From NCBI RefSeq assembly GCF_013839445.1, contig NZ_JACDIT010000001.1, forward strand, positions 1 through 64,000: a stretch of DNA of 64,000 nt. The letters are read 5' to 3'. Under the pieces are notes generated by a model that worked only from the letters and a program-made list of their open reading frames with translations, was not told the DNA's origin and ran no database searches. The stretch is from Chthonobacter albigriseus. Lineage in GTDB: Bacteria; Pseudomonadota; Alphaproteobacteria; Rhizobiales; Pleomorphomonadaceae. The translations under genes and the position numbers were made by a program. This document shows, one piece after another, positions 2,612 through 58,174 of this stretch (within the stretch, counting starts at the first letter, position 1; the number at the start of each line of letters is the position of its first letter).

Positions 2612-2643
2612 CAAAAGAAAAGGGCCGCGGAATACCGCGGCCC
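2612..2643 (-). terminator. Intrinsic terminator of OPX gene 1
   Basis: On the minus strand a 9-bp GC stem (2622-2630 with 2635-2643, loop of 4) is followed by a T-rich tract, 26 nt beyond the stop of the polysaccharide export gene. Confidence 0.8.
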
Positions 2644-2660
2644 CCGTCTGATCCGATAGG

Positions 2661-3805
2661 TCCAGACCTCAGTCGCCGATCGAGCGGATCGCCGACTTGG
2701 CGTTGGCGACGTCGGCGATCGGGCCGGCGGTGCCGGAGGTGATCGTGTTGACGACGCTGAGGAACTTGGTGATCTCCACCGACTTGGCGTTGGAGACGAA
2801 CAGGATGTCCTTGTCCTGCATCGGGAACTGCTGCACGGCGAAGAAGGCCGAGGGATCGCGCAAGTTGGCGCGGAACACCACCGGAACCGTGTCCTCGGTG
2901 AAGCGCGTGACGTCGGCGCCGACCTTGGCCAGTTCCGCCTTGGAGACCTGGCGGTAGACCAGCACGTAGGTCGGATCGGCGCGCTCGTCGAGCAGGCCGC
3001 CGGCCTTGCCCAGCGCGTCGCCCAGCGTCAGGTTCGCCTCGGCGAAGTCGAAGCGGCCGGACAGGCCCGTCGCGCCGAAGGCCAGGTAGGTCCGACGCTC
3101 GCGGTTGATGTAGACCGTGTCGCCCGGCACCACGTAGACGTTCTCACGCGGGTTGGCGACGATGTCGTCGAACAGCACCGTTGACTGGCGGCCGCCGCGC
3201 TGCAGCGTGACGTAGGTCTCCACCCCCGGGGTGGCGAGGCCGCCGGCGCGGGAGATCACGTCGAGGATGCGCTCGCCGTTGGGGTTCAGCTCCAGCTTGG
3301 CCGGAGAGTTCACGTCGCCCAGCACCGAAACCTCGGCCGAGCGGCTCTGCAGCACGGTGACCAGCACCTGCGGCTCGATCGCGCGGTTGGCGAGCGCGTT
3401 CTCGATGTCGCGCTGGACCGCGTCGACGGTGCGGCCGGTCGCCTGGATGCGGCCCGCGTAAGGGACCGTCAGCGTGCCCGACTTGTCGATGCGCTGGTTG
3501 GGAAGAGTGATGAAGTTGCCGGGGCGCGAGCCCGCGTCGGCCGGGATGAACAGACCGCCGGCGCCCGCCTCGAACACGGCCACCGAGACCACGTCGCCCA
3601 CGCCGAGCGGCAGTTCGGGAGACCCGCCGCCACGCATGCCGAAGGTGGCGCTCGCCGGAGACGGCGCGGCCAGGACGTAGTTCATCAGCGACTTGTTGAC
3701 GTCGACGAGGACGTAGTCGATGCCGGTCTTGCCGCCGGGGTTGCCCAGCCGCGCGACCGCGCTGGATTCAACCGCGCCGCCGTCCGGACCGGACCGTGGG
3801 AGTGC
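2661..3805. repeat. 1145-bp perfect direct repeat, copy 1 (within OPX gene 1)
   Basis: Line-by-line comparison with 36862-38006 (offset 34201) found no mismatch, including third codon positions. Identity starts 8 bp beyond the stop codon and ends inside the signal-peptide region, where 3806 (G) differs from 38007 (C) and many synonymous differences follow. Both copies are on the minus strand. No transposase or inverted termini border it, so it is not an insertion sequence. Confidence 0.97.
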
Positions 3806-3877
3806 GGAACAACCGGCAACCGTCAGAAGAGCGGCCAGAACGCCGGTTACACGAAGTGTCTTTGAGCTGCGCAGCAT
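2669..3877 (-). CDS. Outer-membrane polysaccharide export lipoprotein (Wza/OPX family), copy 1
   Basis: Periplasmic and outer-membrane channel component that exports the polymer together with the Wzc-like co-polymerase. The 402-aa protein starts MLRSSKTLR and has a lipoprotein signal ending VAGC, so Cys23 is the predicted lipidated residue. A Poly_export domain begins near LPLGVGDVV (about residue 90), followed by two SLBB-type beta-grasp domains (about 185-245 and 270-330). The start is supported by a GGGTGG ribosome-site context shared with copy 2. The copy at 36870-38078 has almost the same protein: only residues 5-7 and their surroundings differ. The gene is transcribed away from the rest of the assembly genes, with LhgO upstream and a terminator downstream. 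Confidence 0.95.
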   Translation of the reverse strand: MLRSSKTLRVTGVLAALLTVAGCSALPRSGPDGGAVESSAVARLGNPGGKTGIDYVLVDVNKSLMNYVLAAPSPASATFGMRGGGSPELPLGVGDVVSVAVFEAGAGGLFIPADAGSRPGNFITLPNQRIDKSGTLTVPYAGRIQATGRTVDAVQRDIENALANRAIEPQVLVTVLQSRSAEVSVLGDVNSPAKLELNPNGERILDVISRAGGLATPGVETYVTLQRGGRQSTVLFDDIVANPRENVYVVPGDTVYINRERRTYLAFGATGLSGRFDFAEANLTLGDALGKAGGLLDERADPTYVLVYRQVSKAELAKVGADVTRFTEDTVPVVFRANLRDPSAFFAVQQFPMQDKDILFVSNAKSVEITKFLSVVNTITSGTAGPIADVANAKSAIRSIGD

Positions 3878-4159
3878 GCCCCACCCGTCTAGAACCTTGG
3901 ACTGGGAGGCATCATACGGAAACGGGCCGCGCGCGCCATGCGTGGCAGACGATCCGAGCGGCCCGCCCAGCCACTTTGGCGACCGGCTATTGCATCAATG
4001 CAACAGAAATGGGCGCGTAGCCCGAAAATTTAGCCAAGGTTTTGACGCAATTAGAGTTAATGGCGCGTGAACGGACCGCAGTCGGGCTTTGCGGCCGACT
4101 CACGGTCGGAAAACCCTCCGGAGTTTCACCAGGACCGATAGGTTCCTGAAGGTCTCCAG
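3878..4159. promoter_or_regulatory. Upstream region of OPX gene 1 with a perfect inverted repeat
   Basis: No gene is seen in this stretch. It contains TTGCATCAATGCAA at 3990-4003, a perfect 6-bp inverted repeat with a 2-bp spacer, about 113 bp upstream of the OPX start, in DNA less GC-rich than its surroundings. It may be a regulator site; the cognate protein is unknown. Confidence 0.35.
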
Positions 4160-5305
4160 TCAGGCCGATGCACGCAGCGCGGGCGCTGCCGTGACAGGCT
4201 GTGCGAGGCCGATCTCGTCGGCGACCACGTCGGCGATCGCGAGCGAAGAGGTGAGGCCCGGCGACTCGATTCCATAGAGGTGGACGAGGCCCTCGATGCC
4301 GTGGGTCGCCGGCCCCTGGATCAGGAAATCGGCGGCCGGATCCTTGGGACCGGAGATCTTCGGGCGGATGCCTGTGTAGCCCGGCATCAGGCGTCCGTCG
4401 GCGAGTCCGGGCCAGTAGCTGCGGATCGCCTCGTAGAAGCTCGCCACGCGGGACTCGTTGAAGGTGTAGTCGATCCCGTCGATCCATTCGACATCCGGGC
4501 CGAAGCGGGCGCGCCCGGCGAGATCGAGCGTGACGTGGACGCCGAGGCCGGCGTGCTCGGGGATCGGGTAGACCAGCCGGCCGAAGGGGGTCTTGCCGGC
4601 GAGCGTGAAGTAGACGCCGCGGGCGTAGTAGGCGGTAGGGGCGTGCGCGGGATCGTAGCCCTCGATCGCGCGGCCGACGTCCGGCGCCCAGAGGCCGGCG
4701 GCGTTGACGAGGTAGCGGCATTCCAGCGTGACGGGCTCGTCGCGGCCTGCGGTGACGCGGAAGCCGCCGGGGATGACCTCGGCGCGCAGAAAGGGCGTCT
4801 CGAAGGCGATCGCGGCGCCGTGGTCCTCCGCCTCGCCCTGATAGGCGAGCATCAGGCCGTGGCTGTCGACGATTCCCGTGCAGGGGGAGTGCAGCGCGGC
4901 GGCGCAGCGCACCTCGGGCTCCCAGGCGCGGGCGGTCTCGGCCGGGATCTCGACGATGTCGTCGACGCCGTTGGCAAGGGCCGTGCGGTGGATCTTCTCA
5001 AGCTGGCCGACCTGCTCGTCGGTGGTGGCGACGATCAGCTTGCCGGTGCGCTTGTGCTTGATGCCGTGGCTCTCGACGTAGCCGTAGAGGAGGTGGCGGC
5101 CGCGGACGCAGAGCTCGGCCTTGCGCGAGCCGGTGGGGTAGTAGATGCCGGCATGGATCACCTCGCTGTTGCGCGCGGAGGTGTGGGTGCCGATCGCCCC
5201 CTCCCCTTCGAGCACCACGACCTCGACCCCGGCCATCGCCATTCGGCGTGCCACCGCCAGGCCGACGACGCCGGCCCCGATGACGATGCAATCCACTCGT
5301 TCCAT
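4160..5305 (-). CDS. lhgO: L-2-hydroxyglutarate oxidase family FAD oxidoreductase (LhgO-like)
   Basis: A 381-aa flavoprotein of the DAO/LhgO family, which oxidises L-2-hydroxyglutarate to 2-oxoglutarate and passes electrons to the membrane quinone pool. The N-terminus has the FAD-binding GAGVVG motif at residues 11-16, then an acidic residue ending strand 2 (VVLEGE). The family pattern [16 protein letters not shown] follows near residue 42, and the C-terminus has a second dinucleotide-type motif ([13 protein letters not shown]). It is a metabolic enzyme between OPX gene 1 and an SDR gene and has no obvious link to polysaccharide. The ATG at 5305 is the natural start of the Rossmann strand. 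Substrate specificity is inferred from family resemblance. Confidence 0.88.
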
Positions 5306-9027: not shown

Positions 9028-11439
9028 TTACCGCGACGTGCGGTAGTAGTAGCTCTTGTAGTTGCCGACGTAGTTCTCGGTGTCCTCGAAGTTCTGATAC
9101 TTCCCGAGGCGGCGCGGGTCGGCCATGTTGAGGACGACGCCGAGGCACTTCTCGTTGACCGTGTCCTCGGCCCGCAGGATCGAGCGGACCAGACGCCGGG
9201 AGGTGAGGCCCCAGGCCACGACGAAGACGAAGCCGTCGATCTCGTGGGCCACGGCGCGCACGTCGATGACGGGGGCGAGCGGCGGCAAGTCGACGATGAC
9301 GTAGTCGTATTCGGTGCGCGCCCAGGCGAGCAGGTCACGCATGCCGCTGGAAGCCAGCACGTCGCTGGTGTGGAAGAGGCGGCGGCGGACGACGCCCGGC
9401 AGGAAATGCAGGCCGGTGTCCTCCTCGATCTTCACCACGTCCTTGACCGGACGGTTGTTGACGAGGACGTCGATGATGCCTTCCTCGGCATCGCCGCCGA
9501 TCGAGCGGGTCAGGCCGGGGTTGCGCAGGTCGGCGTCGATCAGCAGCGTCTTGGAGCCGCCGCTGGCGATCAGCGAGGCGAGGTTCTTGCTGACCGTGGT
9601 CTTACCTTCCTTGGGCAGGCACGAGACCATGCCGATCACCTTGGAGCGGCGATCGTGGAAGGAGATGTCGGCGGTCAGCTTGATGCTGCGCAGCGTCTCG
9701 GAGAAGCCCGACATGGGATTCTCGATGGCGTGGCGGTAGACCGACGACAGCGGGCGGAGCGAGCGGTTGCGGCCGTTCTCGTCGAGCTTGGTCTCGGCCG
9801 GGCGCAGGCGCTTGACGGGCACCTTGGTGAGCACGCCGAAGAACTCCTGGTCGAGCTCCTGGCGGACCTGGGTGCCGTTGCGGAACGCGCGGTCGTTGAA
9901 CTCGCGGAGGAAGCCGAGCGCGACGCCCATCGTGCCGCCGATCAGCACCGCGAAGGCCATCACGAACATGCTGTTCGGGCTGCTCTTCTGGGTGGGCGGG
10001 GCGGCCTGCGTGATGACGCGGCTGTCGGTGATCGGGAAGGACTGCTGCTGGACGGCTTCCTGGTAGCGCTGCAGGAAGAGCTCGTAGAGGTTCTTGTAGG
10101 TGGTCGCCTCCCGCTCCAGCTGGCGCAGGGTGACCAGGGTCTGGTTGTCGGCGGCGTTGGAGCCGACGAGCGCCTGCAGGCTGGCGGAAAGCGCGATCTC
10201 GCGCTGCTTGGCGATGTCGTAGTCGCTCTTGTAGCTCTCGGCGATGCGGCGCAGCTCGTCGAAGATCAGGCGCTGCGATTCCTTCATGTCGTTGCGCAGC
10301 TGGACGACGCGCACGTGGCCGGAGCCGAGGCGAGGCTCCAGCTCGTTCAGCTGGCGCGAAGCCTCGAGGAACTTCTGGCGGAGGTCGCTGATCACCGCGT
10401 TGCCAATGGATTCCGACACGGCCGCCTCGGTCTGGCGGCTCTCGATGATGTTGCGGATCCGGTTGTAGCGGGCCTCGTTGCGCGAGGTGTCGGTGCGGGC
10501 GACGACGAGCTCGCTGTTGATCTCGGCGAGCTGCTGCTCGTTGATTGTGCGGCCGTCGGCGGAGATCAGGCCGTTCTCGGCCTTGTACTTCTGCACCGCG
10601 AGGTCGGCGGAAAGCGACTGCTGCTTCAGCTCCTCGATGCGGGTGGAAAGCCAGGAGCCGGCACGCCGAGTGGCCTCGTACTTCGCCTCCAGCTGGTCGG
10701 TGAGATACTGGTTGGCGACCGCGTTGACGAGGTTGGCCGAAAGCTGGGGATCCGGCGAGGTGTAGCGGATCTCGATCACGTAGGTGAGACGGATGCGCGA
10801 GACGAGCAGGCCGCGGCGGATCGATTCCATGATCGCGAGCTTGGCCTTGTCCTCCGGATCGATGGAATCGATCAGCTCCAGCGGGGCTTCCGGGTCGGTG
10901 CGGGCGGCTTCCGGGGCGGGCGTCGCCGCTTCGTCGGGCAGCGGCTCGTCCGTTGCCTCGATGCCGGTGAGGCCGCGCACGGAGTTCCAGAGCGAGGTGG
11001 TGAGTTCGCGCGCGGAGCCGATGGCCTCGCTGACCGTGCTGGCGGCCGCGTTGCGACCGGTGGAGGAGTAGACCGGGTGATTCGTGAGGTCGAGCTTGTC
11101 GATGACGGCCAGGAGCACGTTGTTCGACAGCATCACCTCGACCTGGCTGTCGGCGACCGAGCTGTCGATGCCGCCGCCGGTCTGGGGATCGTAGCTGGTG
11201 TCGACACGCGGCACGTTGCGGCTGTCGATCAGGACGCTGGCGCTGGCGGTGTAGAGCGGCTGTGAGGAGGAGAGATAGAACACACCCAGGGCGGCCCCCA
11301 GGAGCGTGCAGATGACGACGAGCAGCCACTGGCGGCGGGCGAAGGCCAGCAGGTTCTCCACCCCGGCGCTCTCCACCGACTGATGGGGGATGCCAGTCCT
11401 GCGAACGACCTCGGGTCGCTTGCTCATCGTATTAAGCAT
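9028..11439 (-). CDS. Wzc-like polysaccharide co-polymerase / BY-type tyrosine autokinase
   Basis: An inner-membrane protein of 803 aa that controls chain length and couples polymerisation to export through the OPX channel. The first transmembrane segment is about residues 37-57. A Wzz domain with a Pro/Asp/Glu-rich insertion (about 160-195) comes next, then a long coiled-coil/GNVR region (about 250-470) and a second transmembrane segment (about 490-512). The cytosolic kinase follows with Walker A PKEGKTT (about 608), Walker A' LLIDADLRNP (about 631) and Walker B VIVDLPPL (about 713). The tail carries six tyrosines within the last 25 residues, the autophosphorylation cluster. An AAGGGA site precedes the ATG at 11439. 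No Wzb-type phosphatase lies nearby. Confidence 0.96.
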   Translation of the reverse strand: MLNTMSKRPEVVRRTGIPHQSVESAGVENLLAFARRQWLLVVICTLLGAALGVFYLSSSQPLYTASASVLIDSRNVPRVDTSYDPQTGGGIDSSVADSQVEVMLSNNVLLAVIDKLDLTNHPVYSSTGRNAAASTVSEAIGSARELTTSLWNSVRGLTGIEATDEPLPDEAATPAPEAARTDPEAPLELIDSIDPEDKAKLAIMESIRRGLLVSRIRLTYVIEIRYTSPDPQLSANLVNAVANQYLTDQLEAKYEATRRAGSWLSTRIEELKQQSLSADLAVQKYKAENGLISADGRTINEQQLAEINSELVVARTDTSRNEARYNRIRNIIESRQTEAAVSESIGNAVISDLRQKFLEASRQLNELEPRLGSGHVRVVQLRNDMKESQRLIFDELRRIAESYKSDYDIAKQREIALSASLQALVGSNAADNQTLVTLRQLEREATTYKNLYELFLQRYQEAVQQQSFPITDSRVITQAAPPTQKSSPNSMFVMAFAVLIGGTMGVALGFLREFNDRAFRNGTQVRQELDQEFFGVLTKVPVKRLRPAETKLDENGRNRSLRPLSSVYRHAIENPMSGFSETLRSIKLTADISFHDRRSKVIGMVSCLPKEGKTTVSKNLASLIASGGSKTLLIDADLRNPGLTRSIGGDAEEGIIDVLVNNRPVKDVVKIEEDTGLHFLPGVVRRRLFHTSDVLASSGMRDLLAWARTEYDYVIVDLPPLAPVIDVRAVAHEIDGFVFVVAWGLTSRRLVRSILRAEDTVNEKCLGVVLNMADPRRLGKYQNFEDTENYVGNYKSYYYRTSR

Positions 11440-11845: not shown

Positions 11846-13270
11846 TCAGTCCTGCGCCGCGGACGCGGCGCCGGTGGCGCCGGGTGCAACGGTGACGGCA
11901 GGCCCCGCCGCGACCCTCTGGCCGGAGCCGGGCTGGCGGGCGAGCGAGACGGACGCGCCGCTTCCAAGGACCGCCGCGACGAACACCGCCAGACCGGGAT
12001 ACTGGAGCGGGAAACCCAAGGCGGCATGGACGATGAGCATCGCCAGGATGCCGAGGCAGGCGATGGGGAATACCCGCAGGCGCTGCCGCGAACCGACGCC
12101 CGCCACGAACACCCTGCCGGCGACCGCGATGACGAAGGCCACGGCTGCCAGGCTGACGAGGCCGCCGGAGGCGATGACGGCGAGATAGAAGTCGTGCGGG
12201 ACCAGCGCGTTCGGCTCCTGCAGGCATTCGCTGGTCTGATAGAGCTGGAAGATGTCCCTCGCGGTTCCGAATCCGCTGCCGAGGAACAGGTTGGCCTTGG
12301 CCGCCTCCCAGGACGCCGACCAGCGGCAGGCGGAGGCGACGCCCTCGTTGGCGATCATCATGCCGAGAAGGGCGATGGCGATCACCAGGAGCACGAGCGC
12401 GCGCGTGGTCCAGGTGCCGGTCAGGCGCTGGGCGGTGCTGGCACGCTTCACCGCGTAGATGGTGGAAACGACGAGCAGCCCGATGACGACGGAGAACTGG
12501 CCGGCGAGCGAACCCGTCCACGCCAACGCCGCGAGGAAGATGACGAAGAAGCCGCCGAGCAGGAAGATCGATGCCTTCGTCTCGGGCTTCACGCTCACAT
12601 AGGCGGAGTAGCGCATCGCATCGGCTTCGGAGCGCAGGCGCGAATAGCGGTAGCGGAGCAGCGCGAAGGCCACGAGCGCCAGGACGCCGTAGTAGCAGGC
12701 CGCAGCATCGCGATCCGTAAAGGGGCCGATGGCGGCCGGCCCGAGCCGCAGGCCGGGGCCGCCCCACCAGCCGCCGATAAGCGCGGCCAGCGTCAGGCCG
12801 ACGAGGATGACGCCGGCGAGCATGACGAGGCCGAGCCAGAGCATGAAGAAGCTGTTCTCGTCGCGCGTCAGGTTCATGGCGAGAAGGAATGACAGCGCGG
12901 CGGCGACGATTGCGCCGAGCGCGACCAGCGGGCTGCCGCGGTGGACGCCGAGGGCGCCGGAAACTCCGTCGAGCGCGTTGCCTGCTTCGGTCCAGATCGG
13001 GTCGGCGAGGCCGAGGGGAAGCCGGACGGTCTGCAAAACGGCGAGGACGGAGACCACGGATACGGCTAGCACCACGCGTCCGGACAGCCGCGCCATCGGC
13101 TTGAGGTCGGACGACGGCAGCGAGACGAACACCATGAGGCCGAGGAGCGCGCAGGCGACCGGCGCCGCGTAGCCGGCCCCCCAGTCGGCGGTGAAGGTCG
13201 CAAGGGTCACGATCCCGCTGAAGAGCGAGAGCAGGACGGCGTGCTTGGCTGGCGGGTCCTTCAGGGCCAT
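11846..13270 (-). CDS. Wzy_C / O-antigen-ligase-like membrane protein (paralogue 1)
   Basis: A polytopic inner-membrane protein (474 aa, about 10-12 hydrophobic segments) of the O-antigen ligase/polymerase superfamily. It is predicted to polymerise or transfer undecaprenyl-linked glycans in the periplasm. Its C-terminal half aligns with the protein at 39768-41162: both have G(S/T)GF.T....F..Y....C, then an H before a hydrophobic segment, GR.F..G, and H.A..F.LQ..G followed by AAVLG. The N-terminal loop pattern P.W.E is also shared. The start is uncertain: ATG at 13270 (chosen), or GTG at 13318 adding 16 residues. It is divergent from the two-cysteine protein gene at 13453. Confidence 0.85.
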   Translation of the reverse strand: MALKDPPAKHAVLLSLFSGIVTLATFTADWGAGYAAPVACALLGLMVFVSLPSSDLKPMARLSGRVVLAVSVVSVLAVLQTVRLPLGLADPIWTEAGNALDGVSGALGVHRGSPLVALGAIVAAALSFLLAMNLTRDENSFFMLWLGLVMLAGVILVGLTLAALIGGWWGGPGLRLGPAAIGPFTDRDAAACYYGVLALVAFALLRYRYSRLRSEADAMRYSAYVSVKPETKASIFLLGGFFVIFLAALAWTGSLAGQFSVVIGLLVVSTIYAVKRASTAQRLTGTWTTRALVLLVIAIALLGMMIANEGVASACRWSASWEAAKANLFLGSGFGTARDIFQLYQTSECLQEPNALVPHDFYLAVIASGGLVSLAAVAFVIAVAGRVFVAGVGSRQRLRVFPIACLGILAMLIVHAALGFPLQYPGLAVFVAAVLGSGASVSLARQPGSGQRVAAGPAVTVAPGATGAASAAQD

Positions 13271-13452
13271 CGGGCATCCGAACCGGTTTGGGGGTCGACG
13301 CTGAACCAAGGTTGCCACGTCCCGTCAACCAGGACCAGAACCGAGACTGGCGCGAATGTGCACACGGCAGAGGAAATGATCGGCATCGTCAGCCGGTCAA
13401 CGTGGTTGCCGCGGTCCTTGGTTGGCGCTTAGATTGGGGCAAAGGGAATGGA

Positions 13453-26784: not shown

Positions 26785-28128
26785 ATGCCATCCGAGAAGC
26801 GGTCAGTCCGGTCCTACCTCGCCCGTGTCGATCGGCGATTCCTGGAGTCATCCGCGGTGATGGCGATCCAGATCCTGGGACTGGCGATCGCCTTCATGAC
26901 CACGGTGATCGTGACGCGGCATCTGGATACCGATGGTTTCGGCCGCTTCAGCGTGCTTCTGAACGCCATCGTGATCATCTCGTCGGCGGCCAACCTCGGC
27001 TTCCACTACGTGCTCCTGCGCGAGACCAGCAAATCCCAGAGCGAGGATGAGGCGGCCGTCGCGCGACGGAAGGTCGCCGCCGCCTCGATCGCGGTGACGG
27101 GGGTCTCGGCGGTCGTGTCGCTGGCGTTCGCCGGCTTCATCATCGCGACGATGACGATCACCGCGATGTCGGCGCTCCTGATCGGCCTGCAGATCGCCGG
27201 CGTGGCGATCGGCGACGCGTTGTGCGGCGCGTTGCGCGGCTTCGGCCACAACCTCCTCTACCAGACCGTCACGCTGACCCGCACCGTGCTGATTTTGGCG
27301 GGGGTCGTGGTCTACACGCAGGTGAGTCCCGAGCATGCGACCATGGAAGGGATCCTGTGGATCTACACCGCGGGGGCCTTCGCAATCATTCCGGTGGTGG
27401 CGCTCTACCTACGCCGCGCGGGCATGGCGCTGCGCGATTTCGGAACCGAGCTGATCTGGCCGGTGATGAAGGAAGGCGGCCCGTTCATCATCACGGTGAC
27501 GCTGAACCTGGCGAACCGCCGCGTCCTGACGGTGCTGATGCCGCTGTTCGTGTCGCTGAGCGAGGTCGGCGTGTTCGCGCTGGCGCTGACGCTGTTCAAC
27601 GCCTACACGACGCTGGTCTACGCGCCGGTGGTGACGATCACGGCGCGGATGGGCCAGGCGATCGGCGCCAAGGACATCCCGGCGCTGCAGCACCAGATGA
27701 ATTTCGGTGCGCTCTTGAGCGGGGTGATGGCCATCGCGGGCGTCGCCGGCGTCCTGGTGGTCGGGCCGTTCCTGCTCGACCTGCTTTTCGGGCCGAACTT
27801 CGCGGGTGCGAAGTGGCCGCTGTTCTTCCTCTGCGCCGCGCTGGTGGTGGACTCCTGCTTCGGGCCGACCGGCGAGGTGCTCTGGCTGTCCAACCGCATG
27901 CGGCTGGCGGTTCTCCTGGAGGCGAACCGCGGCGCGATGGTGCTGGTCGGAACGTTCATCCTCGTCCCGATCTACGGTATCGCCGGCGGCGGGCTCGGGT
28001 TCCTGTTCGGCGTGCTGATCGCCGACTGCATCCAGGCCTATATCGTCTGGAAGGAAGTGGGCGTGAAGCCCGCCATCTTCGCCCTGGCACCACGCATGTT
28101 TCCGTGGCTGCGCCTGCGCACTCTTTGA
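26785..28128 (+). CDS. Polysaccharide flippase (Wzx / MOP superfamily)
   Basis: A 447-aa inner-membrane protein with 12-14 hydrophobic segments, predicted to flip the undecaprenyl-linked repeat unit to the periplasm. The first segment region (FLESSAVMAIQILGLAIAFMTTVIVTRHLDT, quoted in part: GLAIAFMTTVIVTRHL) and DGFGRFSVLL match the Polysacc_synt family start, where a glycine-rich loop follows the first helix. A second half begins near MKEGGPFIITVTLN. It is the only flippase seen in the window. Downstream on the same strand follow the RfbC-like, SAF-domain and GT2 genes, probably one unit. Confidence 0.92.
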   Translation: MPSEKRSVRSYLARVDRRFLESSAVMAIQILGLAIAFMTTVIVTRHLDTDGFGRFSVLLNAIVIISSAANLGFHYVLLRETSKSQSEDEAAVARRKVAAASIAVTGVSAVVSLAFAGFIIATMTITAMSALLIGLQIAGVAIGDALCGALRGFGHNLLYQTVTLTRTVLILAGVVVYTQVSPEHATMEGILWIYTAGAFAIIPVVALYLRRAGMALRDFGTELIWPVMKEGGPFIITVTLNLANRRVLTVLMPLFVSLSEVGVFALALTLFNAYTTLVYAPVVTITARMGQAIGAKDIPALQHQMNFGALLSGVMAIAGVAGVLVVGPFLLDLLFGPNFAGAKWPLFFLCAALVVDSCFGPTGEVLWLSNRMRLAVLLEANRGAMVLVGTFILVPIYGIAGGGLGFLFGVLIADCIQAYIVWKEVGVKPAIFALAPRMFPWLRLRTL

Positions 28129-32498: not shown

Positions 32499-34046
32499 CT
32501 AGAACTGGAAGTAGACGAAGGCTTTCACGTCCGACATGCGCGAGAGCGCCACCAGGAGAAGAAACGCCGTGGCGGCCGCCCAGGTGTGCGTGGGGCGAAA
32601 GGTCGGCACGGAGAGGCGCGGCATCAGCGGGCGGCGACCCTCCGGCCGGTCAAGGATCTCCTGCGAGTTCGGCAGGAACAGCGCGATGCCCGCCCCCACC
32701 AGCAATACCGCTTCCGGATAGGCCTCGGCGAAGCGGCGCAGGCCGCGGATGGCGATCTCGTTCCAGGGCCGTTCCAGAAGGGGCGTTACGGCACTGGCGA
32801 CCGTTTCCGGCGGCAGCGACGGTGGCAACGGGTTGAGGCCCAGGAGGCCGACGATCATGACGCCGGCATGGTCAAGCGTCGGCGCACGGAAGAAGATCCA
32901 AGCAAAGCCGACCGCACCCATGGTGATCGCCCAACCGAGCACGGGGCTGACGACGATCGGACGCCCCCTCGTAGCGGCGATCTCGGTGAAGTGGCGCCAG
33001 CGGTGGTTGACGATGAGGTAGAGGCCGTGCAGGCCGCCCCAGATCACGAAGGTCCACCCGGCCCCGTGCCAGAGGCCGCCGACCAGCATGGTGATCATCA
33101 GGTTCAAGTGGCGCCGCCAGCGGCCCCTCCGGTTCCCGCCGAGGGGGATGTAGAGAAAGTCCCGCAGCCAGGACGACAGGGTGATGTGCCAGCGCTTCCA
33201 GAAGTCGACGATCGAGGTGGACTGGTACGGCGAGGCGAAGTTGTAGGCCACACGGATGCCGAACATCCGGGCGAGGCCGACGGCCATGTCGGAGTAGCCG
33301 GAGAAATCGAAGTAGAGCCCGATCGAGAAGGCCAGGACCGCTGTCCAGGCGGCTGCCATGGTCGGCGGATTGACGAGGGCGCCGTCGAATACGGGGTCGG
33401 CAAGGACCCCTACGGTGTCGGCGATCAACAGCTTCTTGGCGAGACCGATGATGAAGAAGCAGAGCCCGACCGCGAAGTCCCGCGGCCGGAACCGGTAGGT
33501 GCGCGGGTTCTCGATCTGCGGGATGATGTCGGCGTGATGGACGATCGGTCCGGCGATGAGCTGCGGAAAGAATGTGACGAACAGCGCGTAGTCGACCAGC
33601 GTGTAGGGCCGCGTCTGACTGCGCCAGGTGTCGATGAGATAGGCGATCTGCTGGAAGGTGTAGAAGGAGATCGCCAGCGGCAGCACGATCGAATGCACCG
33701 TGTAGTCGTAGCCGGTCAGCACCGAAACATTGTCGACGATGAACGTCGTGTACTTGTAGTAGGCCAGCAACGCGACGTTGGCGGCGACGCCGGCCAGCAT
33801 GATCTTCTTCGCCCGGTCCGGCGCGTCCGTCCGCAGGCGAGTGATGGCGGCACCGATGCCGTAGTTGGCGAGGATCGAGACGATCAGCAAGCCGAGATAG
33901 AAGATGTCCCAGTAGCCATAGAAGGCGAAGGACGCGAAGAGCAGGAACAGCCGCGCCCATGGCGGGCTCCAGCGGCCGAGGCTGAAGAAGACCAGCAAGG
34001 TGACCGGCAGGAAAACGAGGACGAAGGCGTAGGAATTGAAAAGCAT
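32499..34046 (-). CDS. MBOAT-family O-acyltransferase (AlgI-like)
   Basis: A 515-aa polytopic inner-membrane protein that passes acyl groups from the cytosol to a periplasmic partner for O-acylation of exported polysaccharide. AlgI-family motifs are LFNSYAFVLVFLPV at the N-terminus, ASFAFYGYWD, FYTFQQIAYLID, DFWKRWHITLSSWLRDFLYI and GGLWHGAGWTFVIWG, which includes the invariant histidine. Its partner is the SGNH-like protein encoded 15 bp upstream, matching the AlgI/AlgJ-AlgX arrangement. The ATG at 34046 has GAGG upstream. Function in acetylation is well supported; the polymer is inferred from context. Confidence 0.95.
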   Translation of the reverse strand: MLFNSYAFVLVFLPVTLLVFFSLGRWSPPWARLFLLFASFAFYGYWDIFYLGLLIVSILANYGIGAAITRLRTDAPDRAKKIMLAGVAANVALLAYYKYTTFIVDNVSVLTGYDYTVHSIVLPLAISFYTFQQIAYLIDTWRSQTRPYTLVDYALFVTFFPQLIAGPIVHHADIIPQIENPRTYRFRPRDFAVGLCFFIIGLAKKLLIADTVGVLADPVFDGALVNPPTMAAAWTAVLAFSIGLYFDFSGYSDMAVGLARMFGIRVAYNFASPYQSTSIVDFWKRWHITLSSWLRDFLYIPLGGNRRGRWRRHLNLMITMLVGGLWHGAGWTFVIWGGLHGLYLIVNHRWRHFTEIAATRGRPIVVSPVLGWAITMGAVGFAWIFFRAPTLDHAGVMIVGLLGLNPLPPSLPPETVASAVTPLLERPWNEIAIRGLRRFAEAYPEAVLLVGAGIALFLPNSQEILDRPEGRRPLMPRLSVPTFRPTHTWAAATAFLLLVALSRMSDVKAFVYFQF

Positions 34047-35879: not shown

Positions 35880-36635
35880 TTAGAGCGGGTTGACCGGGCT
35901 CACGTCGGCGTTGCCGTTGGAGGCATCGAGACCGACGGTGAAGTTGCCGGTGCGGCGGTTGATCGGGAAGTTGCCGGAGCGGTTCGGGTTGGACTCGTCG
36001 CCCTCCACCGAGTTGCTCGGGCCCGGGTTGCCGACGCCACCGAGCGCCGGGGCGCCGCCGACGAAGCCGCCGCCGCCCGCCGCGCCGAGAGCCGCGGTCT
36101 CCAGGTCGTTGGAGGCGGAGAGGAAGGCGGTGAGCAGGTCGTCGTTGGCGAGCTCGGCCACCTTCTGCTGGATCAGCTGGGCGTAGGCCGCGCTGGACGG
36201 GGCGCAGGCCATGGCGGCGCGGGCGAGGCCCGAGCCGATCGCGGCGCGCTGGTCGAGGTTGGCGGTGGCGATGAGCGCGAGCAGCGGATCGAGCGTGGCG
36301 GCGTCGGATCCGGCGAGCGCGCGGACGCGGCTCGACATCTGGATGCCGCCTTCCGGATAGTCGTTCAGCATGGCGCCGGGAGCGGCCAGGAATTCGGAGA
36401 CGTCAGCGGACGAAAGCTTGATCGGCGGCAGGAAGCAGGCCTGCGCGGTTTCGCCGCCGCCCACGTCCGCCCCGCCGACCGTACCGGTGACGAGCGGGTC
36501 GGTCTGCCCGGTGGCGGGCGCTGCCGCATCGGGAGCCACGTCCTGGGCCGCGGCGCCGGAAACCGAAAGCGTGGCCAGCGCGATGAAAGACGCGCCGAGG
36601 AGCGAGTTACGGAAGGAAGCGATCGAGCAACGCAT
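35880..36635 (-). CDS. Secreted protein of unknown function
   Basis: A 251-aa exported protein. The signal peptide is MRCSIASFRN.. to SGAAAQ (cleavage near residue 31). The mature protein has a helical central domain with two cysteines (ACFLPP and MACAPS) and a Gly/Asn/Pro-rich C-terminal third (GGGGFVGGAPALGG, SVEGDESNPNRSGNFPINRRTG). The ATG at 36635 has GAGGT upstream; an earlier ATG at 36647 and a longer frame are less likely. It follows OPX gene 2 on the same strand. No known family was recognised; a structural or polymer-associated role is only a guess. Confidence 0.75.
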   Translation of the reverse strand: MRCSIASFRNSLLGASFIALATLSVSGAAAQDVAPDAAAPATGQTDPLVTGTVGGADVGGGETAQACFLPPIKLSSADVSEFLAAPGAMLNDYPEGGIQMSSRVRALAGSDAATLDPLLALIATANLDQRAAIGSGLARAAMACAPSSAAYAQLIQQKVAELANDDLLTAFLSASNDLETAALGAAGGGGFVGGAPALGGVGNPGPSNSVEGDESNPNRSGNFPINRRTGNFTVGLDASNGNADVSPVNPL

Positions 36636-36861
36636 TTGAGACCTCATCGACGAATAAGCCGAGCAACGTGAATTCAAGCTAACCAGCCCGATGCGTATTC
36701 ACAAGGCTTTAACGATGTTTTCGCGGCGTCCTCTCAAATGTTGATTAACGCCGCAACGCTCCGTTTACCAGTCGGGATGCTAACGAAACGTTAAGCAACC
36801 GACCTTCGCCCTGGGTGCGGAAGCGCGGTTTGCCGCGCTCCCGAAGTGTCGAGTTCAGCGT

Positions 36862-38006
36862 TCCAGACCTCAGTCGCCGATCGAGCGGATCGCCGACTTG
36901 GCGTTGGCGACGTCGGCGATCGGGCCGGCGGTGCCGGAGGTGATCGTGTTGACGACGCTGAGGAACTTGGTGATCTCCACCGACTTGGCGTTGGAGACGA
37001 ACAGGATGTCCTTGTCCTGCATCGGGAACTGCTGCACGGCGAAGAAGGCCGAGGGATCGCGCAAGTTGGCGCGGAACACCACCGGAACCGTGTCCTCGGT
37101 GAAGCGCGTGACGTCGGCGCCGACCTTGGCCAGTTCCGCCTTGGAGACCTGGCGGTAGACCAGCACGTAGGTCGGATCGGCGCGCTCGTCGAGCAGGCCG
37201 CCGGCCTTGCCCAGCGCGTCGCCCAGCGTCAGGTTCGCCTCGGCGAAGTCGAAGCGGCCGGACAGGCCCGTCGCGCCGAAGGCCAGGTAGGTCCGACGCT
37301 CGCGGTTGATGTAGACCGTGTCGCCCGGCACCACGTAGACGTTCTCACGCGGGTTGGCGACGATGTCGTCGAACAGCACCGTTGACTGGCGGCCGCCGCG
37401 CTGCAGCGTGACGTAGGTCTCCACCCCCGGGGTGGCGAGGCCGCCGGCGCGGGAGATCACGTCGAGGATGCGCTCGCCGTTGGGGTTCAGCTCCAGCTTG
37501 GCCGGAGAGTTCACGTCGCCCAGCACCGAAACCTCGGCCGAGCGGCTCTGCAGCACGGTGACCAGCACCTGCGGCTCGATCGCGCGGTTGGCGAGCGCGT
37601 TCTCGATGTCGCGCTGGACCGCGTCGACGGTGCGGCCGGTCGCCTGGATGCGGCCCGCGTAAGGGACCGTCAGCGTGCCCGACTTGTCGATGCGCTGGTT
37701 GGGAAGAGTGATGAAGTTGCCGGGGCGCGAGCCCGCGTCGGCCGGGATGAACAGACCGCCGGCGCCCGCCTCGAACACGGCCACCGAGACCACGTCGCCC
37801 ACGCCGAGCGGCAGTTCGGGAGACCCGCCGCCACGCATGCCGAAGGTGGCGCTCGCCGGAGACGGCGCGGCCAGGACGTAGTTCATCAGCGACTTGTTGA
37901 CGTCGACGAGGACGTAGTCGATGCCGGTCTTGCCGCCGGGGTTGCCCAGCCGCGCGACCGCGCTGGATTCAACCGCGCCGCCGTCCGGACCGGACCGTGG
38001 GAGTGC
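36862..38006. repeat. 1145-bp perfect direct repeat, copy 2 (within OPX gene 2)
   Basis: Identical to 2661-3805 at every position compared. It ends where the signal-peptide region begins to differ by synonymous changes. The 5' and 3' flanks (38007-38245 and 36640-36861) show no similarity to those of copy 1. Confidence 0.97.
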
Positions 38007-38078
38007 CGAGCAGCCGGCAACCGTGAGCAGTGCCGCCAGAACGCCGGTGACACGAAGGAGATTTCTAGAACGCAACAT
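36870..38078 (-). CDS. Outer-membrane polysaccharide export lipoprotein (Wza/OPX family), copy 2
   Basis: A 402-aa OPX lipoprotein, the same as the product of 2669-3877 except for MLRSRNLL in place of MLRSSKTL at the N-terminus. It has the lipobox ending VAGC (Cys23), a Poly_export domain and two SLBB domains. The start at 38078 is preferred over an in-frame ATG at 38138 because the GGGTGG ribosome-site context matches copy 1 and because the longer N-terminus would bury the signal peptide. The gene sits in the second locus with a two-cysteine protein, a cysteine peptidase and a Wzy_C-type protein, so it probably serves a different polymer. Confidence 0.95.
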   Translation of the reverse strand: MLRSRNLLRVTGVLAALLTVAGCSALPRSGPDGGAVESSAVARLGNPGGKTGIDYVLVDVNKSLMNYVLAAPSPASATFGMRGGGSPELPLGVGDVVSVAVFEAGAGGLFIPADAGSRPGNFITLPNQRIDKSGTLTVPYAGRIQATGRTVDAVQRDIENALANRAIEPQVLVTVLQSRSAEVSVLGDVNSPAKLELNPNGERILDVISRAGGLATPGVETYVTLQRGGRQSTVLFDDIVANPRENVYVVPGDTVYINRERRTYLAFGATGLSGRFDFAEANLTLGDALGKAGGLLDERADPTYVLVYRQVSKAELAKVGADVTRFTEDTVPVVFRANLRDPSAFFAVQQFPMQDKDILFVSNAKSVEITKFLSVVNTITSGTAGPIADVANAKSAIRSIGD

Positions 38079-38245
38079 GGACCACCCGTCGTTTCCCCGA
38101 TTCTCATTTTGATTACGATAAGAGCACGGGGATTCCAAACCCTTAAATTCTAGGCGAATTGAAATGAGTCGCGCCGCGACTTTTGTGTCGCAGTTCTCCG
38201 GGCTTTTTTGTCCGATCGATGCTGTGGGGAGGGAGTCCCGGACGG

Positions 38246-39004
38246 TCAGTGGGGCGGCGGCCGGTAACCTTTCGAGGAGAGGTCCCTGAGGCGGGATGCC
38301 GGCAGGTCGCGGGAGGCCTCTGCGAGGTAGGGCACCGCCGCATCGGGGAGCGCGGTCAATAGCCGCGCCGCTTCGTCCGCACGCATGAAGCGAGCGACCG
38401 CTGCGAGGTCGGCGCGGAAGGTCTCAGCCGCCGCCGGATAGACGTCCGGCGCCGTGCGCCAGACCGCGAAGCGGGCCTGCACCGCAGCGTAGGTGCTCGG
38501 CGCGCGCACCTGCGACAGGGCGAGCAGCCGGGCCGTCTCGGCCCGGTTCGCCGCGACCGAACGGCGGACGGCGGCGTAGCGGGCCCACAGATCCCCGTCG
38601 CCGGGATTGCAGGAAAGTGCGCGCCGCAGAACGGTCAGAGCGTTGCCGGCGGTCTTCTCCCAGCGGTCGTAGTCCGCGGCTGGATCCTGGCGATCGAGAT
38701 GGGTCAGTTGCGCGGTGACGGCGGCATCGACGACATCCGGACGGCAGGTCACGGCCGTCCAGGCGAGCCCGGTGGCCGCATGACGCTGCACCCGGTCGTC
38801 CGCCACGGGAGCGCCCTGCTGGAGGGCGGTGGCGGCCGTGCGGAGCGGTTCGCTCTGGAGATCGACGAGAAGGGAGAAGCCGGCGAGCGGGACGAGCCCG
38901 AGCGCGGTGAACGCCGACAGCAGGCGGACGGCAAGGCCCCCGCCGGTGCGCACCCTCGGCGCGCGGTCCTCGCCCGGTTCCCGATCCACGCGGTTCCCCT
39001 CCAC
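38246..39004 (-). CDS. Membrane-anchored protein of unknown function with two spaced cysteines (paralogue 2)
   Basis: A 252-aa protein with a charged cytosolic N-terminus (about 25 residues), one hydrophobic segment (LLSAFTALGLVPLAGFSLLV) and a helical periplasmic domain. VTCRPDV and RRALSC place two cysteines 45 residues apart, as in the protein at 13453-14223, followed in both by a W-containing helix (GDLWARYAAVRR here). Beyond this the two have diverged. It is encoded between OPX gene 2 and the cysteine peptidase, 70 bp after the peptidase stop. No known family was recognised. Confidence 0.8.
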   Translation of the reverse strand: MEGNRVDREPGEDRAPRVRTGGGLAVRLLSAFTALGLVPLAGFSLLVDLQSEPLRTAATALQQGAPVADDRVQRHAATGLAWTAVTCRPDVVDAAVTAQLTHLDRQDPAADYDRWEKTAGNALTVLRRALSCNPGDGDLWARYAAVRRSVAANRAETARLLALSQVRAPSTYAAVQARFAVWRTAPDVYPAAAETFRADLAAVARFMRADEAARLLTALPDAAVPYLAEASRDLPASRLRDLSSKGYRPPPH

Positions 39005-39074: not shown

Positions 39075-39677
39075 TCAGAGCGAAACCCAGCGGCGCGGAT
39101 CCTCGGGCGACTGCATCTTCACCCAGGACAGGCCGGCCTCGCGCCACGGGCGGATCCGGCTGGTCCGGTTGTCGAGCACCACGTCGCCGTCGCTGGTGCG
39201 CACGACGAGCACCGCGTGCCCCTCGCCGTCGGAGGTGCGGGCGACCGCCAGCAGCAGCGCCGAACTGGGGATGCCCTGCGCCATCAGGCGGTGACGCTTG
39301 GTGATTGCGAAATCCTCGCAGTCGCCTTCCCGCGGGGCGAGGCTCCAGATGTCCTTCATCGGGCCCTTGGGGCGGTCGGCCTTCGGGCGGATCGACTTGT
39401 TGACGTCGCGGTTCACCTGGTCGAGCAGCGCAACCATGCCGTCGTCGAGCGAAACCACATCGGCACTGCCGCCGGTGCGGGCGCATTCGCCGGGGTTCTT
39501 GGAGCAGAAGATCACGTAGGCCATCGGGGCCAGCGTCGCCTTCTTAGGGTTCATCGGCGCCATGGAAGCCGCCTTGAAAGCGCCGGCGATGGTCGCCGGG
39601 CCGGCCCAGGCGGGCGCCAGGCTGGAGGTCAAAAGGCCGAAGGTCAGGACCACGGTCGCGAGTGCAGAACGCTGCAT
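39075..39677 (-). CDS. Periplasmic transglutaminase-like cysteine peptidase (BTLCP/LapG family)
   Basis: A 200-aa exported protein (signal peptide ending APAWAG near residue 26) of the bacterial transglutaminase-like cysteine proteinase family. The catalytic triad is visible as Cys120 (EGDCEDFAITKR), His154 (GEGHAVLVV) and Asp169 (VLDNR). The characterised relative LapG cleaves a surface adhesin under control of LapD, but no LapA- or LapD-like gene is seen here. In this locus it could process a protein linked to polysaccharide export. The gene is 90 bp downstream of the Wzy_C-type gene and probably shares its transcript. Confidence 0.92.
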   Translation of the reverse strand: MQRSALATVVLTFGLLTSSLAPAWAGPATIAGAFKAASMAPMNPKKATLAPMAYVIFCSKNPGECARTGGSADVVSLDDGMVALLDQVNRDVNKSIRPKADRPKGPMKDIWSLAPREGDCEDFAITKRHRLMAQGIPSSALLLAVARTSDGEGHAVLVVRTSDGDVVLDNRTSRIRPWREAGLSWVKMQSPEDPRRWVSL

Positions 39678-39767: not shown

Positions 39768-41162
39768 TTAACGGAATCCGGGCGCCGCGGACCGCCCCCT
39801 GGAGAGGCCGGCCAGGGCTCCGAGCACGGCCGCCGCCATCATTGCGACGCCGTGGATCTGCAGCGAGAAGTCCACCGCCGAGTGGGCGAGCATCACCGCG
39901 AGCACGGCAAGACCGGTGGCGCCGGCCCAGCGGAAGCGGTTGCGCTGCTTCAGGCCGCGCAGAAAGGTGCGCCCCAGAAGGAGGACGACGACCGCGAGCA
40001 CCAGAACGAACGGCAGGCCCAGCGTGATCAGACCCTCCATGTAGCCGTTGTGGGCGCGCTCCAGCACCCCGGTGAGGCCGCAGGCCACGTCGCGGTAGGG
40101 CTCGAAGGCGAGCTTGAAGGTGGCAAAGCCGGTGCCGAAGGGCTGGTTGTCGGCCGCGGCACGGGCGAGCGAAGGCAGCAGGCAGTAGCGCAGGTCTTCC
40201 ACGATGCTCACCTGCTGGGCGCGTTCCAGCACCCGGCCGCCGAATACGGCGAGCACCAGAGCGATGATCCCCGCGCCAACGAGCACGGCCCTGCGCAAGC
40301 CGCCGGCCGGCGGTTCGCCCTCCAGGTCCAGCCCGGGACGGCGCCGGGCGAGCGCGGCGATCAGCACGAGAACGCCGAGGGCCGAGGCGGCGATGCCGGC
40401 GCGGGACTCGGTGAGGAGCAGGGAGAGGCCGACGACGGCGATCGGCAGCGCCTGCACGAGCACTCCCCACTCGCGGCGGGAAAGGCCGCCGCGCCCCGGC
40501 GTCGTCAGGCGCGTCAGCATGGACGGCCAGTTCACCGTCGCTCCGGCGCCGGCCATGCGCCCGATCAGCACCACGAGCGTGATGCCGAGGAAGGTGGCGG
40601 TGGTGTTCCGGTTCACGAACACGGAGGTCAAGGTGCTGAAGAAGTAGCGGCGCTGGAAGTAGAGCTGCTTGTCCGGCATGAAGAACAGCTGGAACAGCCC
40701 ATAGAGCGCGACGATCAGACCGAAGGCGGCGAGCGCGCGCAGCAGACGGTCGGCCGACCTGTCTTCACGCGCCGCGGTGACGGCGACAGCAAACAGCAGG
40801 AAAGGGGCGACCAGGGCGCCGATCCCGGCGATGCTGGCGGCCGGATCGATCGAGATGGACCGGCGGGCCGCCCCGGTGATCGGGGCCGTCTCCTTCCACA
40901 TGGGATGGGTGAAGGGATTGTCGGGAAGGTCGAGCGCCTGGAAGGCGACGTAGGCGGCGAGAAGCACGGCCAGCACCAGCGCGGTGCGGGAGAGGTCACG
41001 GGCGCCGATGTGCTCGCGCCAGAACACGGTCACCACGACGTAGACCAGCGCCGTGAGGAGGACGCTGAGGTCGAGCGCCGTCTGCGACACGCTGCCGAGC
41101 GGGATCACCGCGACCGCGACCACGGTCACGACCAGCCAGCGCGGCACGCCCAGCCTCGACAT
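39768..41162 (-). CDS. Wzy_C / O-antigen-ligase-like membrane protein (paralogue 2)
   Basis: A 464-aa polytopic inner-membrane protein with about 10-12 hydrophobic segments. The periplasmic loop YFFSTLTSVFVNRNTTATFLG (residues cited in part) resembles the G..F.NRN..A..L motif of O-antigen ligase/Wzy_C proteins. The C-terminal part parallels the protein at 11846-13270 (G.GF.T..., GR.F..G, H.A..F.LQ..G.A). It is predicted to polymerise or attach glycan in the periplasm. It heads the leftward group Wzy_C, cysteine peptidase, two-cysteine protein, OPX. Whether it acts as polymerase or ligase cannot be told from sequence. Confidence 0.88.
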   Translation of the reverse strand: MSRLGVPRWLVVTVVAVAVIPLGSVSQTALDLSVLLTALVYVVVTVFWREHIGARDLSRTALVLAVLLAAYVAFQALDLPDNPFTHPMWKETAPITGAARRSISIDPAASIAGIGALVAPFLLFAVAVTAAREDRSADRLLRALAAFGLIVALYGLFQLFFMPDKQLYFQRRYFFSTLTSVFVNRNTTATFLGITLVVLIGRMAGAGATVNWPSMLTRLTTPGRGGLSRREWGVLVQALPIAVVGLSLLLTESRAGIAASALGVLVLIAALARRRPGLDLEGEPPAGGLRRAVLVGAGIIALVLAVFGGRVLERAQQVSIVEDLRYCLLPSLARAAADNQPFGTGFATFKLAFEPYRDVACGLTGVLERAHNGYMEGLITLGLPFVLVLAVVVLLLGRTFLRGLKQRNRFRWAGATGLAVLAVMLAHSAVDFSLQIHGVAMMAAAVLGALAGLSRGRSAAPGFR

Positions 41163-45281: not shown

Positions 45282-45442
45282 CCTGGTCCGCGACGCCGGA
45301 CCAATCACGGCTTCTCTGTCGCAAGCACCTGCTACCGCCGTCATGGTCCGCGCAGGCGGACCACTCCCGCATTTTCCTTCGCGTTCCGCCCGGCTGATCC
45401 GACAAAGTCGTGGGTGGTCCGCCTTCGCGGACCATGACGGTT
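45282..45442. repeat. REP-like palindromic repeat cluster A
   Basis: Three related units after the TolC gene. Unit 45338-45375 has a hairpin built on GGTCCGCGCAGGCGGACC followed by ACTCCCG and AT-rich bases. Unit 45407-45442 is the same element inverted, with GGTCCGCCTTCGCGGACC. A degenerate unit lies at 45282-45309. The same element recurs at 57893-58174. Inverted pairing of units resembles the BIME arrangement of REP sequences. Confidence 0.85.
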
Positions 45443-45546
45443 AAGAGGGAAGACGAGGCGAGGATCGGGCGGGTGGCCCCGCATTCCTTTTTTGCAGGCC
45501 ACCTACCCGCCGTCATGGAACGGCGGCTGCCTCCCCGGCCCTGCCG

Positions 45547-57892: not shown

Positions 57893-58174
57893 CCGTCATG
57901 GTCCGCGAAGGCGGACCACCCACGCATTTTTCACGCGCTCGCCACCCTCACCCACGAACTCGTGGGTGGTCCGCCTGCGCGGACCATGACGATCGCGGGG
58001 AAGTGCACGGAATAGCCGAGCTTCGATCTGCCGCCCGCCCGCACCTCCGTCCACCCCCACTCAACCCCCCTCGCCGTCATGGTCCGCGAAGGCGGACCAC
58101 CCACGCATTTTTCCGCCCGCGCCACCTCCACCACGAACTCGTGGGTGGTCCGCCTGCGCGGACCATGACGATCG
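57893..58174. repeat. REP-like palindromic repeat cluster B (two inverted pairs)
   Basis: Two composite elements, 57893-57994 and 58074-58174, each consist of a hairpin unit with GGTCCGCGAAGGCGGACC and CACCCACG, a spacer of about 24 bp, and the same unit inverted (CGTGGGTGGTCC, then GCGGACCATGACG). The two composites are nearly identical, so this is a tandem copy. The family also occurs at 45282-45442. It sits between the binding-protein gene and the rest of the operon. Confidence 0.92.

Follow-up and report, generated by a model that had tools for sequence, protein, structure and literature searches.

Two polysaccharide export genes of Chthonobacter albigriseus with identical bodies and diverged signal peptides: a probable case of recent gene conversion

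How can two copies of an export gene be identical over almost their whole length, silent sites included, and yet differ in their first codons? The question is raised by a surface-polysaccharide region of this soil bacterium, approximately 43 kb long, which holds both OPX genes and lies within the window, i.e., the whole stretch of 64,000 nucleotides analysed here. The two copies and their parts are as follows.

2669-3877, minus strand: OPX_A, Wza-like polysaccharide export lipoprotein, 402 aa (PF02563, 1.8e-14; SLBB_2, 3e-15; phmmer to Wza 2j58, 3.5e-23)
36870-38078, minus strand: OPX_B, the second copy, 402 aa, ATG at 38078, same Pfam families as OPX_A
2661-3805, unstranded: identical tract, copy A, from 8 bp beyond the stop to codon 25, 0/1145 mismatches
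36862-38006, unstranded: identical tract, copy B, 0/1145 mismatches
3806-3877, minus strand: diverged signal-peptide codons 1-24 of A, 19/72 differences to B
38007-38078, minus strand: diverged signal-peptide codons 1-24 of B, 19/72 differences to A
3878-3889, minus strand: RBS-side 12 bp of A, 10/12 alike with B, unrelated farther upstream
38079-38090, minus strand: RBS-side 12 bp of B, 10/12 alike with A, unrelated farther upstream
2620-2645, minus strand: terminator-like hairpin just after copy A, weak (2 sites found vs. 1.2 expected by chance)

Both OPX domains score above their curated cut-offs (Poly_export 54.1 bits, cut-off 28; SLBB_2 56.5 bits, cut-off 27), while NCBIfam gave only sub-cut-off matches for OPX and none for the small neighbor genes tested. 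The Pfam scan covered 50 translations from the window, some of them probably in the wrong frame; for OPX_B it was run from the second codon (38075), and the ATG at 38078 was picked by homology to A. The lipobox, LTVAGC, was read by eye in both copies with its Cys at codon 23. Sequence similarity to Wza, the capsule and colanic acid OPX of E. coli, is low (85.5 bits), however, query residues 87-381 match Wza residues 63-342, and like Wza the product is a predicted lipoprotein with a Wzc-type partner in the region. The phmmer match, which is one of sequence only, extends to residue 342 of the 359 of Wza (2j58); the product may or may not share the helical outer-membrane pore that Wza-type OPX proteins have at the C-terminus. 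Unlike the E. coli system, two identical OPX copies occur in one region and Wzc is adjacent to neither. The search that detected the hairpin after copy A found none just after copy B, and promoter scans returned nothing at the start of either gene.

In a direct alignment, all 1145 bases of 2661-3805 match those of 36862-38006 and no extension is possible at either end. The tract runs from 8 bp beyond the stop codon into the gene, where identity ceases between codons 25 and 24. Codons 25-402 are thus without a single difference between A and B, fourfold sites included (0/249), placing body divergence at such sites below approximately 1.2% by the rule of three. This is the sole direct-repeat family of at least 60 nt listed by the repeat finder within the window, and the whole genome (4,644,500 bp) holds two good matches only, the remaining two being 38 and 52 bp long. 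A profile search of the genome at E 0.001 likewise returned OPX_A and OPX_B alone, and a broader Poly_export search added one further match, a short 196-aa frame on contig 15.

The 5′ ends are a different matter. Counted from the ATG, codons 1-24 comprise 11 with silent changes, three with replacements and 10 unchanged, and the Cys (codon 23) and the Ser that follows it (codon 24) differ silently only. Fourfold sites differ at 8 of 17, a count that rests on those 17 sites only. The contrast between signal region and body is strong both over all sites (Fisher p = 4e-25) and when silent changes in codons 8-24 are set against those in the body (Fisher p = 2e-12). As the differences are confined to the signal peptide and to silent changes in the Cys and Ser codons, the mature proteins of OPX_A and OPX_B should be identical. 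Beyond the RBS-side 12 bp, likeness between A and B over 180 bp of upstream sequence is near chance level. Judging 24 codons too short for trees, we compared the signal region by pairwise identity: A and B are 73.6% alike, whereas six family sequences, taken from five relatives, reach 33-45%. Hence the signal region, too, goes back to copying within this lineage, by duplication or conversion, at an earlier date than the body. The initial annotation had described identical copies at these positions, synonymous sites included, flanked by signal regions coding nearly the same residues with many synonymous differences and, beyond these, by unrelated sequence; the first two statements are borne out by the counts above, and so is the third, apart from the short RBS-side likeness.

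The congener (G001, of the same genus as the genome under study) has a single OPX of this subfamily. Between copy A and this gene, 67 of 172 fourfold sites differ and 115 codons carry replacements: the OPX body is free to change rather than frozen. The two signal regions are separated by a distance (47% of 17 fourfold sites) comparable with that between the species (39%). In a protein tree of eight family sequences and 17 of 80 named loci, hand-picked for spread and with the named rows starting at the match rather than at the start codon, A and B pair and then join the congener.

Among 20 genomes of the family, nine match at E 0.001, and six of these, with scores near 700 bits or more, represent this subfamily. 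Two of the six carry two copies, the present genome and G006, and the pairs are nearly identical in both. A second OPX subfamily (287-337 bits) was seen in G001, G002, G003, G004, G006, G007, and G017, and in the family genome scan it was absent from the present genome and G019. One OPX of G007 (L038 9047-10195) ends 15-20 residues short of its relatives, and its profile match was flagged with two internal stop codons. Across the order, 39 of 397 genomes match at 1e-100 and five have two matches: the present genome, G006, G264, G284, and G355. The G284 pair is 65% alike over 661 bp only, and those of G264 (354 and 342 bits) and G355 (411 and 348 bits) were assessed by score only. In the family of G290, taken as Rhizobiaceae in the wide GTDB sense since two match positions coincide with those of the named loci L052 and L058, 46 of 394 genomes match at 1e-110, with a second match in 0 of the 46. 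At most four candidate places were scored per genome in these two scans, and second copies could be missed; still, one strong match in every G290-family genome with any suggests that two copies are not generally needed. A pair in Rhizobium cremeum W16 (L073, L074) was set aside: at least 20,395 bp including OPX are 100% alike and both copies come from contig ends, which we read as an assembly or segment duplicate.

The G006 copies lie approximately 870 kb apart in opposite orientation on one contig of 5.33 Mb. Their first nine codons are almost unrelated, codons 10-24 hold three mismatches and the remaining body another three, one of them a replacement; the likeness continues for approximately 125 bp beyond the stop with few differences and two gaps. 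One copy (L035 8961-10181) adjoins a pyruvate kinase gene and a Bmp-type transporter, with no polysaccharide gene recognized among the 10 neighbors scanned, and the other belongs to a polysaccharide locus that contains an additional OPX. As a test of descent from the same ancient duplication, these contexts were compared with those of A and B, and they match neither. An independent duplication appears more likely, although it is possible that the G006 pair reached its present contexts by relocation. The pair fits conversion and also a recent plain duplication.

What kind of event leaves such a pattern? We think it very probable that the bodies of the OPX paralogues were recently homogenized by homologous recombination, i.e., by gene conversion. 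Two age strata are present in one gene pair. The identity tract ends sharply inside a homologous, diverged gene, at a boundary that immediately follows the codons of the lipobox Cys and its neighboring Ser (codons 23-24); silent sites are homogenized between A and B (0/249) though free to change (67/172 between A and the congener); and the duplication is older than the tract, with 8 of 17 fourfold sites differing in codons 1-24. The tuf genes of the same genome (L196, L199; contig 12) share an exact run of 1189 bp, 18.4 kb apart and ending at the gene edges, while the tuf pair of G006 has one mismatch in 1194. As tuf is a textbook conversion pair (PMC5485169, PMC6053082), this exact run means that the OPX pair resembles the best-known bacterial conversion pair as found in its own genome. 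Like tufA/tufB (EF-Tu), the OPX genes are dispersed paralogues with gene-length exact identity and unrelated flanks. Unlike tuf, a core translation gene for which concerted pairs are described in 29 orders (PMC6053082), OPX pairs occur in two of 20 family genomes, and the homogenized tract stops 24 codons inside the gene. In Salmonella, tuf conversion is reported to occur approximately once in 1e5-1e6 generations, to abort at gene ends and to be greatly reduced in recA strains (PMC5485169), and by analogy a 5′ region of 74% identity would act like a tuf gene end. The proposal that one paralogue had converted the other, made when the locus was annotated, is therefore well founded in the two age strata, the sharp boundary, the one-copy congener, the similar pair in G006 and the tuf signature.

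Other origins for the identity must be weighed against conversion. The 71 bp with which contig 1 begins recur in reverse complement at the very end of contig 3 (105,445 bp), a graph fork, and with this shared terminal run the assembly looks to be a short-read one. A 1145-bp repeat would be a single edge in such a graph, and copy A lies 2.7 kb from the contig end. Slightly differing bodies might thus have been merged into one consensus and placed twice, and it is possible that a few true base differences inside the repeat are hidden in this way. As an account of the whole pattern, however, we find an assembly artefact quite unlikely. Merging needs near-identical copies and should not hide divergence like that of the signal region, i.e., a 26% difference should not become zero, and the 5′ ends of both copies enter the body in frame. 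The 1189-bp tuf copies were placed on one contig in the same assembly (merging being possible there too), and a contig of the congener with tuf at either end is collinear with the DNA that separates them, which backs the placement of gene-length repeats rather than their base-level identity. The G006 pair, moreover, lies in a contig of 5.33 Mb.

Alternatively, the body may simply have been duplicated in recent times, one copy gaining its 5′ end from imported DNA or from the start of a different OPX gene that was already present. Such an origin would suit the single copy of this subfamily in the congener and the almost unrelated first nine codons of the G006 pair. We nonetheless hold it to be very improbable, as the homology between the two 5′ ends in the window reaches the RBS side, 11 of the 24 codons differ silently, and here A is nearer to B than either is to the six sequences compared. 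In addition, the in-frame fusion of a body to a homologous resident start is in effect ectopic replacement, which is to say conversion. That the bodies have stayed alike through nothing more than strong selection on their DNA or protein sequence seems scarcely credible: the SLBB and Poly_export core is indeed conserved among relatives, but the absence of fourfold differences between A and B contradicts this explanation when set against those to the congener.

If conversion is the process, which machinery do the two genes serve? The following features of the region bear on this.

4160-5305, minus strand: FAD oxidoreductase upstream of OPX_A, a homologue of which adjoins the single OPX of G001 (PF01266)
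9028-11439, minus strand: Wzc-type PCP with tyrosine-kinase domain (Wzz, GNVR, AAA_31; TIGR01005 over cut-off; PF02706 genome scan)
11846-13318, minus strand: weak candidate for a Wzy-like polymerase or ligase (Wzy_C 20.5 bits vs. a cut-off of 31.7)
26785-28128, plus strand: Wzx-like flippase (PF01943)
35880-36677, minus strand: g35880, which adjoins OPX in several relatives (synteny)
38246-39004, minus strand: gene upstream of OPX_B whose counterpart in relatives often lies beyond Wzc (synteny)
39075-39677, minus strand: BTLCP cysteine proteinase, often near OPX in relatives (PF06035, 6e-52; synteny)
39768-41162, minus strand: Wzy-like polymerase, often upstream of OPX in relatives (Wzy_C 47.9 bits; synteny)

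Among named relatives, which are the best 80 of 127 found and include some loci cut by contig ends, the anchor directly after OPX, of 15 tested, is a Wzc on the same strand in 67 of 80 (hand count), whether or not g35880 intervenes; Wzy is often upstream of OPX and BTLCP near it. Around B the order Wzy, BTLCP, the 38246 gene, OPX, and g35880 is kept, with Wzc 25 kb away. Wzc lies approximately 5 kb from A, on whose other side are a phosphoesterase-like gene (by homology) and manC. The congener carries manC, an epimerase, the FAD oxidoreductase, its one OPX, a distant Wzy match and Wzc within approximately 21 kb. From gene order we infer that, in a locus conserved among rhizobia, the ancestral OPX position is filled by copy B and that copy A is the extra one; the two appear to mark either end of a single locus that has expanded. 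With B in the conserved slot and A approximately 5 kb from the single Wzc, both copies may feed one machine. An MBOAT acyltransferase near OPX_B (32499-34046), with a sub-cut-off DltB match, may acylate the polymer.

Among the translations scanned, the window holds one PCP (9028-11439 being the only Wzz-domain protein found), one recognized flippase and, with one scoring below its cut-off, two polymerase-like genes. This gene content does not support two complete systems, so that the initial annotation, in which conversion would keep one channel protein serving two polysaccharide systems, is well supported in its first part and not in its second. It is possible that two polymers share parts, or that one copy has a separate PCP among the five further Wzz-domain proteins located elsewhere in the genome by the PF02706 scan.

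Under the conversion reading, OPX_B would hold the ancestral slot and the additional copy, OPX_A, would be old, dating from roughly the time when this species and the congener parted. RecA-dependent conversion, probably repeated, would copy the body between A and B, whereas the short 5′ end, once diverged, would block strand exchange and so escape. The outcome would be one mature channel protein expressed from two loci with separate upstream regions. Given one strain with both copies, repeated conversion and a single event fit alike. Either copy may have been the donor and either the recipient. Our preferred guess for why such an arrangement is tolerated or favored is that A and B both have to match the single Wzc of the region and to enter a common octamer. 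Mutation of the Wza-Wzc interface is described as abolishing colanic acid production in E. coli (PMC12881504), and by analogy with that contact OPX and Wzc would be functionally linked here. A broader reading joins these points and is offered tentatively, since as a whole we find it doubtful: OPX of Pleomorphomonadaceae would be under tuf-like concerted evolution in at least two genera, selection would keep the mature channel identical at two separately controlled loci because the copies co-assemble and dock on one Wzc, and recombination between the direct repeats could also remove the 34.2-kb block while an intact OPX stays behind, which might serve to switch the whole locus on or off.

Gene conversion between paralogues is a well-known process, and the best-known examples of gene-length homogenization in bacteria concern core machines, such as tuf and rRNA. 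The present pair is a sound and tidy case of this process in an unusual gene, and we found no earlier report of OPX gene conversion in the open-access literature, covered mostly at abstract level. One survey gives 26 prokaryote genes under long-lasting concerted evolution (PMC6053082), and like that set the OPX paralogues are closer within the genome than orthologues are. Neither of the two tables of that survey contains a polysaccharide export gene, and the word “polysaccharide” does not occur in its main text (PMC6053082). Its criterion for recurrence is a syntenic concerted pair in five or more species (PMC6053082), and the OPX pair was found in two of 20 family genomes and in differing gene contexts. 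If a surface-polymer export channel does belong to the class of tuf and rRNA, this would suggest that the fit between OPX and Wzc, not the sugar, limits its divergence. Additionally, trees of OPX paralogues can mislead on the assignment of channels to polysaccharides.

The OPX repeats are in direct orientation, 34,201 bp apart (3806-38006). Recombination across them would delete Wzc, Wzx, and many sugar genes, and one intact OPX would remain. A separate repeat beyond OPX_B consists of 64-nt inverted arms at 45401-45464 and 58050-58113, which are 78% complementary and 12.6 kb apart.
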